From Aurantibacillus circumpalustris (GTDB lineage: Bacteria; Bacteroidota; Bacteroidia; B-17B0; Aurantibacillaceae), in NCBI RefSeq assembly GCF_029625215.1, contig NZ_CP121197.1:1736001-1800000 (forward strand): a DNA stretch of 64,000 nt, read 5' to 3'. Position 1 is the first letter of the stretch. The number at the start of each line of letters is the position of its first letter. This document shows, in pieces, positions 12,461-15,317 of the stretch. The position numbers were made by a program, and so were the translations under genes. Under the pieces are notes generated by a model. That model worked only from the letters and a program-made list of their open reading frames with translations. It ran no database searches and was not told where the DNA came from.

Positions 12461-12678
12461 AAGTTTTTTTAATAATTAACGGGAGTCTTAATAATTTAAA
12501 TACAATACTAAAGCAGCAGAATATTTGAAGCATCAGATTTGACAAGTTTAAAATTGTTGACTGTTTATGTCTTAAAAGGATAAAGATGAAACTCATGATA
12601 TTTAAACTTGAGTTTCGGGTTATTACAACAAATCATTTACAACTTCGTGTGCTTTTAAAATATATATACTGTACACAA

Positions 12679-12722
12679 CAAAGTTAAAGTTAATAGCGCC
12701 TAACGAAATTGATAATTATCAA
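12679..12722 (-). promoter_or_regulatory. FNR-type class II promoter for the ClC gene
   Basis: TTGATAATTATCAA at 12709-12722 is a perfect FNR/Crp-family palindrome. On the minus strand, TAACTTTG at 12686-12679 matches the -7 element TAnnTTTG. The box centre lies 36.5 bp from the last base of the -7 element, so about -41.5 from the predicted start near 12674. This is the classical class II activator position and matches the spacing seen at 13079-13122 exactly. Confidence 0.65.
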
Positions 12723-13078
12723 TGAAGTTATCGTTAAAAATGGGTAAATGATTTATCAGTAATAACAAGTGATTACAGAGAAGTTAATTTTTTAACTATA
12801 AATTTTATTTACAAAAAACTTGAAGAAGAAATAAACGAATGCAAAATAATTTAATTGACTCTTGTTAATTTTTTTACTAGTAACAGCCATAACTTGCGAA
12901 CAGTTATACTTGCTCAATGAACAAGGGCGGCTCTATAAAAAGCAAAATGTAAAATTGGTATGCGGTATTTTTTTGCATCTGTTAAGTTTGACTTCTTATT
13001 TGTAAAAGCCTACCTGTTGAGATTAGAATAGAGTCAACTACAATTCTGCGTAAAAATGAATAAATAAATCCACTAAAC

Positions 13079-13122
13079 TTGATTTGTATCAAAGGTTTTA
13101 ATGTTTAGCTTGTTTATTTTTG
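13079..13122 (+). promoter_or_regulatory. FNR-type class II promoter for an orphan transcript
   Basis: TTGATTTGTATCAA at 13079-13092 is a perfect TTGAT-N4-ATCAA box. TATTTTTG at 13115-13122 matches TAnnTTTG. The centre-to-end distance is 36.5 bp, the same as at the ClC promoter. The predicted start is near 13127, which opens directly onto two strong hairpins and not onto a known gene. Confidence 0.6.
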
Positions 13123-13126
13123 TCCC

Positions 13127-13212
13127 GTATGTGTATGCCGAAGAACATAGTTTTTCGGTTGTTGTATGAGCACACAGGAAAGGTGGTGTATGGCCTTTCC
13201 TGTGATGCTTAA
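13127..13212 (+). ncRNA. Candidate FNR-activated structured small RNA
   Basis: Two adjacent hairpins follow the predicted start. The first, 13138-13158, pairs CCGAAGAAC with GTTTTTCGG (one G-U pair) across the loop ATA. The second, 13173-13204, pairs CACAGGAAAGG perfectly with CCTTTCCTGTG across a 10-nt loop. No U-tract follows, so the second is not a standard terminator. A 27-codon frame (ATG 13129, stop ending 13212) runs through both hairpins, so a tiny peptide or a leader is the main alternative. No known RNA family is recognised. Confidence 0.4.
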
Positions 13213-13289
13213 TTCAAAACAGTTTTAAAAATCCCAAAAAACGCCCGTATCAATGTGAAATATTTAATTTAAGAAATTTAATGGAATAA

Positions 13290-13317
13290 TTGACATTTGT
13301 CAATTGGATTAATTTTG
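13290..13317 (+). promoter_or_regulatory. Crp/Fnr gene promoter with overlapping palindrome
   Basis: TTGACATTTGTCAA at 13290-13303 is a perfect TTGAC-N4-GTCAA palindrome. TAATTTTG at 13310-13317 matches the -7 element. The palindrome covers the -33 side of the promoter (its centre is 20.5 bp from the -7 end), where a bound dimer would block RNA polymerase. This fits autorepression of the regulator encoded from 13338. Confidence 0.55.
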
Positions 13318-13337
13318 TACATTTATTCCAATTGCTT

Positions 13338-14030
13338 ATGGAATTTAATATTGATAAATATAAATTAAAATCGCAATCGTTTTTTGATATGCTTGGCCCC
13401 AACGAGGTTCAGTATACAAAAGATAACATAATACGTAAAGAATATAAAAAAGGTCAGGTCTTGTTTAAGGAAGATGGATTTTCAAAAGGTATCTACATCG
13501 TAAAAAAGGGAAAAGTTAAAATTCATAATACCGGTGGTGAGGGTAAAGAGAGTATTATTTATATTTATAAGAAATCTGATTTCTTTGGATATCGGCCTTT
13601 AGTTGCTAATGAACCTAATCCTGTTACTGCTACTGCAATGGATAATGTTGTAGTTTCTTTTATTCCGAAGGAAGTTTTTGAAAGTCTATTAAATACCTCA
13701 AATTTATTCGCAAAAAAACTTTTGATAAATGTTACCAGTGAGTTTAGTGTTTGGATTAATAAAATAACTCTTTTTTCTCAATACGCCGTAAAAGGAAGAG
13801 TAGCATTGAGTTTACTCATTCTGAGTAAAGTTTATGAAGGAGATAAGCCAGCTAATTTTATTACAATAAATATTGGCAGAGATGATTTGGCTGCTTATGT
13901 TGGTACCGCTAAAGAAACATTAGTACGTATGCTGCGCGTTTTTAAAGATGAAGGGGTAATAACCTCAAGTGGCACCAAAATCACAGTTGTTAAGCCAGAA
14001 GTTTTAGAAAACTATCTGAACTATTTTTAA
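13338..14030 (+). CDS. Crp/Fnr-family transcription regulator lacking cysteines
   Basis: 230 residues from ATG 13338 (MEFNIDKYKLK). A TTG at 13290 is in frame but lies inside the promoter palindrome. The N-terminal cyclic-nucleotide-binding-type beta barrel spans about residues 35-130 (GQVLFKEDGFSKGIYIVKKGKVKI). The C-terminal winged helix contains RDDLAAYVGTAKETLVRML; the recognition helix keeps Glu and Arg at the DNA-contact positions of FNR and CRP, with Val where FNR has Ser212. There is not a single cysteine, so it cannot carry an FNR 4Fe-4S cluster; the signal it senses is unknown. FNR-like boxes flank it on both sides, making it the likely local regulator. Confidence 0.88.
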   Translation: MEFNIDKYKLKSQSFFDMLGPNEVQYTKDNIIRKEYKKGQVLFKEDGFSKGIYIVKKGKVKIHNTGGEGKESIIYIYKKSDFFGYRPLVANEPNPVTATAMDNVVVSFIPKEVFESLLNTSNLFAKKLLINVTSEFSVWINKITLFSQYAVKGRVALSLLILSKVYEGDKPANFITINIGRDDLAAYVGTAKETLVRMLRVFKDEGVITSSGTKITVVKPEVLENYLNYF

Positions 14031-15272: not shown

Positions 15273-15317
15273 CGAAATTAACAAAGATGTGAGTGTCAAG
15301 CCATTGATAATTATCAA
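15273..15317 (-). promoter_or_regulatory. FNR-type promoter upstream of the microprotein and MscS
   Basis: TTGATAATTATCAA at 15304-15317 is identical to the box at 12709-12722. On the minus strand TAATTTCG (15280-15273) differs from TAnnTTTG at one base and lies 37.5 bp from the box centre, within 1 bp of the spacing at the two better promoters. The predicted start is near 15268, 23 nt before the microprotein ATG. Confidence 0.5.

Follow-up and report, generated by a model that had tools for sequence, protein, structure and literature searches.

The window analysed here is a stretch of 64,000 nucleotides from Aurantibacillus circumpalustris (contig NZ_CP121197.1, positions 1,736,001 to 1,800,000). 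It carries, at 13338-14030 on the plus strand, a gene for a Crp/Fnr-family regulator with a cNMP-binding domain and an HTH_Crp_2 domain, and the gap between this gene and that of a ClC channel contains predicted Fnr-type boxes. The start is taken as the ATG at 13338, the position at which the orthologous proteins also begin. With this start the gap measures 877 bp; the 829 bp given in an initial annotation of the locus would correspond to a TTG start at 13290, which is itself the first base of an Fnr-type box (TTGACATTTGTCAA, 13290-13303, no strand assigned). That box lies 34 bp 5' of the regulator ATG, corresponding in place to an exact box that 19 of 26 orthologues carry 33-40 bp upstream of the start codon, and no recognisable -7 element accompanies it on either side in the window genome.

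Further upstream, an exactly palindromic Fnr-type box (TTGATTTGTATCAA, 13079-13092, plus strand) begins 259 nt before the regulator ATG and is centred ∼41.5 nt 5' of the inferred transcription start. It is followed, after a 22-bp spacer, by an exact -7 element of the Bacteroidota type (TATTTTTG, 13115-13122, plus strand), for which the consensus is TAnnTTTG. A second Fnr-type box (12709-12722, minus strand) belongs to a promoter directed away from the regulator and towards ClC, with its -7 element (TAACTTTG) at 12679-12686 on the minus strand. Its spacer is likewise 22 bp, so that the perfect box, the -7 element and the spacing shared with the ClC promoter were all found as first described. 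This ClC-side promoter lies 616 nt from the regulator on the opposite strand, and a borderline hairpin (-8.5 kcal/mol) occurs ∼92 nt downstream of it.

Exact matches to the box, a 22-bp spacer and TAnnTTTG occur twice in the whole 4.6-Mb genome, and both (12722, minus strand; 13079, plus strand) fall in this same gap between the ClC and Crp/Fnr-type genes. Spacers of 20-24 bp yielded no additional exact promoter genome-wide, the reversed control pattern had no match in the genome, and allowing one mismatch added three sites. Across 87 family genomes, the exact pattern was found at 65 sites in 38 genomes compared with 4 matches of the reversed control, indicating that such matches are mostly not due to chance; many of the 65 stand before protein genes.

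The regulator contains no cysteine among its 230 residues. It therefore cannot carry the 4Fe-4S cluster of FNR and is not an Fe-S FNR; the Fnr model is its best NCBIfam match, at 64 bits against a cut-off of 228. The labels "FNR" and "redox" used in the initial annotation are thus too specific for this neighbouring protein. HTH_Crp_2 matches seven times in the genome, and the one paralogue that was looked at (3812618) has no TTGAY-type box within one mismatch in the 250 nt upstream, where a TGTGA...TCACA palindrome is seen by eye. Because the box sits before the starts of the orthologues and the palindrome of the paralogue differs, the window regulator is likely to bind TTGAY boxes, as judged from these sequences. 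The box variants at orthologous loci partly track the type of regulator (L107 and L115, which share one genome; L105, L113 and L116): TTGAC...GTCAA accompanies most MEFN/MFDI-type proteins, TTGAT at one or both ends accompanies most MFNL-type proteins, and the L116 box reads TTGACAAATATCAA. This pattern possibly reflects a change in binding specificity.

The promoter at 13079 predicts a short structured RNA at 13127-13212 on the plus strand, the same strand as the regulator, with its start 211 nt upstream of the regulator ATG. Hairpin 1 (13137-13159), first described as a 9-bp stem with one G-U pair, is present and is extended to 10 bp by the fold; hairpin 2 (13167-13211) contains the perfect 11-bp stem (13173-13183/13194-13204) within a stem of 18 bp with one bulge. 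The fold of 13127-13235 reached -40.0 kcal/mol (z = -5.8), and none of 200 shuffled sequences was equally low. Among 1,716 GC-matched 109-nt segments of the window, the one equally low was an overlapping segment that starts at 13121, and 2 of all 3,196 window segments (both strands, step 40) were equally low. The absence of a U-tract noted at the outset was borne out for hairpin 2, and hairpin 1 is followed by a weak, U-rich tail ∼36 nt past the -7 element. No terminator-like site was found 3' of this weak one in the direction of the regulator. The 86-nt RNA carries the hexamer TGTATG at three places (13132, 13163 and 13187), predicted to be mostly unpaired; some 6-mer occurred at least three times in 112 of 5,000 shuffles of the window RNA.

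A frame of 27 codons runs through both hairpins, from an ATG at 13129 to a TAA at 13212 on the plus strand, as had been reported. Its codon score is -0.17 per codon, whereas gene segments average +0.16 and 99% of those of the same length score higher; the scores of 85 spurious ORFs span a range that includes it. Searches of 86 other family genomes returned weak matches at most (best E = 0.14). As neither coding-like codon usage nor conservation of the frame was seen, a small-protein gene was rejected and the frame was judged non-coding, which disfavours the peptide that had been offered as an option.

No homologue of the 231-bp stretch was found in 198 related genomes (best match E = 5e-5); the matches listed cover at most 55 of the 231 bases, and the best of them, at L009, lacks the box. 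The hairpins themselves thus gain no support from comparison. The genome itself contains no further copy of the hairpin DNA, so this DNA is not a dispersed repeat, and that reading was rejected. Exact searches of viral contigs with the arms of hairpin 2 gave no match. A known Rfam family was likewise rejected, as none matched the RNA region at gathering score. A relaxed Rfam search of 12461-13340 (E up to 10) gave eight matches, all far under their thresholds, the best being a microRNA family (E = 0.015, 22 bits versus a threshold of 57).

A scan of 84,980 species genomes yielded 49 loci, from which we used the 26 (L102-L127) whose regulators are 37-65% identical to that of the window, leaving out 23 more distant ones. 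At 20 of these 26 loci, a promoter on the strand opposite the regulator (box, 21-23 bp and TAnnTTTG, at most one mismatch) lies within 420 nt of the regulator; its spacer is 22 bp as in the window, or 21 bp at some loci. An intrinsic terminator with its T-run 56-83 nt past the -7 element was predicted at 18 of the 20, compared with 41 of 280 TAnnTTTG sites that lack a box, taken from the same loci (Fisher p = 2.5e-12, treating related loci as independent). The terminator finder had been widened after a stricter version missed large loops; with the stricter version, 13 of the 20 loci were positive, as were 26 of 301 control sites. The L123 terminator is weak (-8.7 kcal/mol), and this locus is not among the 24 RNAs used below. 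L121 and L124 have the promoter with no terminator found, and L107, L116, L117, L118, L125 and L126 have no opposite-strand promoter within 420 nt, although L116 has one at 693 nt. The L102-L127 loci hold eight further terminator-ended copies, seven opposite the regulator and a weak one on its strand (L108). On the strand of the regulator, a non-coding, terminator-ended promoter within 420 nt was found at 0 of the 26 loci.

The genes that lie past the relatives' RNAs vary by locus and include a 445-residue gene, which we take to encode a lysine 2,3-aminomutase-like (KamA-like) protein, as well as ClC, MscS-like and other genes. This variation speaks against the RNAs being the leader of any single gene. 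A long ORF begins 105-112 nt past the -7 element at L108, L113 and L115, and ORFs of 85 and 66 codons begin 35 and 70 nt past it at L110 and L111, respectively, so that the RNAs of these loci may be read through or serve as leaders. In the terminator stems of 19 RNAs, pairing was kept with both sides changed in 8 of 11 pairs, which is evidence for the terminators rather than for a common function. At the 14 loci scanned, the relatives' RNAs matched no Rfam family. From these comparisons, short RNAs that are linked to the regulator and driven by an Fnr-type box look like a property of the lineage.

Fnr-box promoters with at most one mismatch also fire into the regulator at 9 of the 26 loci, where the regulator ATG lies 3-42 nt past the -7 element. 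At L105, L111, L115, L116, L122 and L124 this distance is 3-7 nt, and the regulator mRNA may be leaderless there, to judge from the spacing.

The motif TTTT(C)CAT occurs in the 5' ends of 11 of 24 RNAs of the relatives, compared with a shuffle mean of 1.1 and with 0 of 2,000 shuffles reaching 11, the 24 being related and hence non-independent sequences. It is complementary to ATGAAAA or ATGGAAAA. The predicted pairing of 16 RNAs with start regions was no stronger than with the interior of 115 neighbouring ORFs (p = 0.91); relative to shuffled RNAs, the contrast between the two was better by ∼1 SD. When four genomes were searched for targets using one form of the motif, 83 matches were obtained versus 88 for the reversed control, and of seven of these 83 viewed in context, one resembles a start codon by eye. 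Given the pairing result and the number of control matches, start-codon pairing was rejected and no target is claimed. The exact promoter together with TTTYCAT was found class-wide in 1 of 395 genomes (control 0), a sample in which the window's family was represented by only 15 genomes, the known carriers of the motif form in that family not being among them, so that the result bears only on rarity elsewhere in the class.

We also built a covariance model, R1, from 19 of the 24 extracted RNAs. At E ≤ 0.1 it matched in 85 of 87 family genomes, and an Fnr-type promoter stood just upstream of 10 of the 30 loci it returned and was absent from 20. R1 is mainly a generic terminator model and was rejected as evidence of membership.

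Compared with the RNAs of L102-L127, the window RNA has the same box type, spacing, -7 element and neighbouring regulator and a similar length, and its promoter (box, 21-23 bp, TAnnTTTG) lies within 420 nt of the regulator. The relatives' RNAs, in contrast, are on the strand opposite the regulator, finish at a terminator with a U-tract at 56-83 nt and are, for the most part, U-rich in their 5' portion, none of which applies to the window RNA; its hairpin 2 ends 82-89 nt past the -7 element, slightly beyond their terminator range. TTTT(C)CAT is absent from it, this motif not being strict even among the relatives (11 of 24), and it had no meaningful match to R1, which is itself unspecific. Because orientation, U-tract, motif and model are not shared, we did not file the window RNA as a member of the class. 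The ClC-side promoter at 12722 does share the class orientation.

Taken together, the sequence data establish the predicted promoter, the fold, the lack of any sign of coding and the existence of the class among relatives, and they support the general idea of a non-coding RNA driven by an Fnr-type box at the regulator. The regulatory RNA proposed in the initial annotation is supported in part: its exact and near-unique promoter, its exceptional fold, its non-coding frame and the terminator-ended stretch at 18 of 26 loci speak for it, and the lack of a homologue in the genomes searched, of a U-tract after hairpin 2 and of the motif, together with its direction into the regulator, speak against it. 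Our tentative first choice is a free non-coding RNA that is activated by a Crp/Fnr-type regulator and corresponds, after strong divergence, to the short terminator-ended RNAs of most relatives examined. A regulator of this family, most likely the product of the gene at 13338, would bind the box at 13079-13092 and activate transcription from ∼13127. The product would be a non-coding RNA of ∼85 nt with two stable hairpins, whose 3' end would lie at or just past hairpin 2, through processing or a terminator without a U-tract. Such an RNA might act in trans as part of the response of the regulator.

Nearly as likely is a structured leader, in which 13079 is a distal autoactivation promoter and the hairpins lie in a 211-nt 5' leader of the regulator mRNA, where their role may be to protect the mRNA or to control how it is translated. 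The two readings differ solely in the 3' end of the RNA. The RNA points into the regulator on its own strand, with the ATG 126 nt past the end of the frame and no terminator-like site beyond the weak one of hairpin 1. The box at 13290-13303 has no recognisable -7 element, so the regulator may need another promoter, and the nine loci with a promoter into the regulator make autoactivation plausible. At those nine loci, however, the ATG follows the -7 element by 3-42 nt, leaving a 211-nt structured leader without parallel, and there is no homologue for comparison. We weakly prefer the diverged short RNA to the structured leader.

It is unlikely that the box is a chance match beside an intergenic palindrome that is non-functional or incidentally transcribed. 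The lack of sequence conservation in 198 related genomes would agree with this, but two exact promoters in one gap beside the regulator, where the control pattern gave 0, the extreme fold and the regulator-linked RNAs of the relatives argue against it. That the transcript is a leaderless mRNA encoding a peptide of 27 residues is very improbable given a codon score (-0.17) in the range of 85 spurious ORFs and a best match of E = 0.14, even though the ATG lies 6 nt past the -7 element, as the regulator ATG does at 3-7 nt in six relatives, and the stop coincides with the end of hairpin 2.

A broader interpretation, which we regard as possible though doubtful, is a module that couples Crp/Fnr-type regulators of this Bacteroidia lineage, lacking Fe-S cysteines, with RNAs of their own. 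Each RNA would be driven by an Fnr-type operator next to the regulator gene, with 9 of 26 loci also firing into the regulator; the RNAs would multiply and diverge quickly around this gene, and the window RNA would be a strongly folded two-hairpin replacement arising from another operator in the gap. If true, an RNA gene that stands beside its own regulator (18 of 26 loci) and changes rapidly in sequence would offer a case of the origin, multiplication and replacement of regulatory RNAs. To our knowledge, few Bacteroidota sRNAs have known regulators.

Among characterized systems, FnrS is the closest working analogue. FnrS pairs with mRNAs via Hfq, and PhrS and AniS are Anr- or FNR-linked sRNAs activated by a Crp/Fnr-family protein. 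FnrS resembles the window RNA as a small RNA with an Fnr-type box promoter, and a low-oxygen type of response would be a further likeness. It differs in belonging to another phylum; here the regulator lacks the Fe-S cysteines and the RNAs lie beside the regulator gene. The FnrS model of Rfam had no match at gathering score, nor in the relaxed search (E up to 10) of 12461-13340. PhrS and AniS are alike in their activation by the Crp/Fnr family and come from other phyla, their sequences having been compared through Rfam as a whole. FnrS is reported as an FNR-activated sRNA of enterobacteria and NarS as likewise FNR-dependent (PMC8139620). Rfp18 of Flavobacterium and MasB of Bacteroides, likened here by description, are sRNAs of the same phylum with proposed mRNA pairing (PMC9723704, PMC10994844). 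MasB is placed in the Cur regulon (PMC10994844), and the words Fnr and Crp are absent from the main texts of both papers (PMC9723704, PMC10994844). Searches of open-access literature on Fnr- or Crp-linked sRNAs, with the emphasis on Bacteroidota, brought up none that we recognised as such an RNA of this phylum.

Several genes recur within ∼3 kb of the regulator at L102-L127, namely those for the ClC channel, the 445-residue KamA-like protein, a GNAT-nitrilase-like protein, MscS-like, OtsA-like and PanD-like proteins and response regulators; apart from those tested in the window, these names are our presumed assignments. These neighbours are perhaps a low-oxygen survival regulon. In many family genomes, Fnr-box promoters also stand before one recurrent kind of protein that starts M(N/T/K)QKPS.AF (L073, L075, L076, L078, L080, L082, L083, L089, L092, L094, L095 and L098), whose gene appears to be a recurrent target of such promoters. 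In the window itself, a further Fnr-type box (TTGATAATTATCAA) lies at 15304-15317 on the minus strand and is followed, 58 bp downstream, by a small hydrophobic ORF of 36 codons (MKHFGVADIVSILMILLMLFFMFVGLTYTKTRKKKK; start ∼15245, minus strand) that precedes an MscS-like gene; by eye, this box is accompanied by an imperfect -7 element (TAATTTCG) with a spacer of 23.
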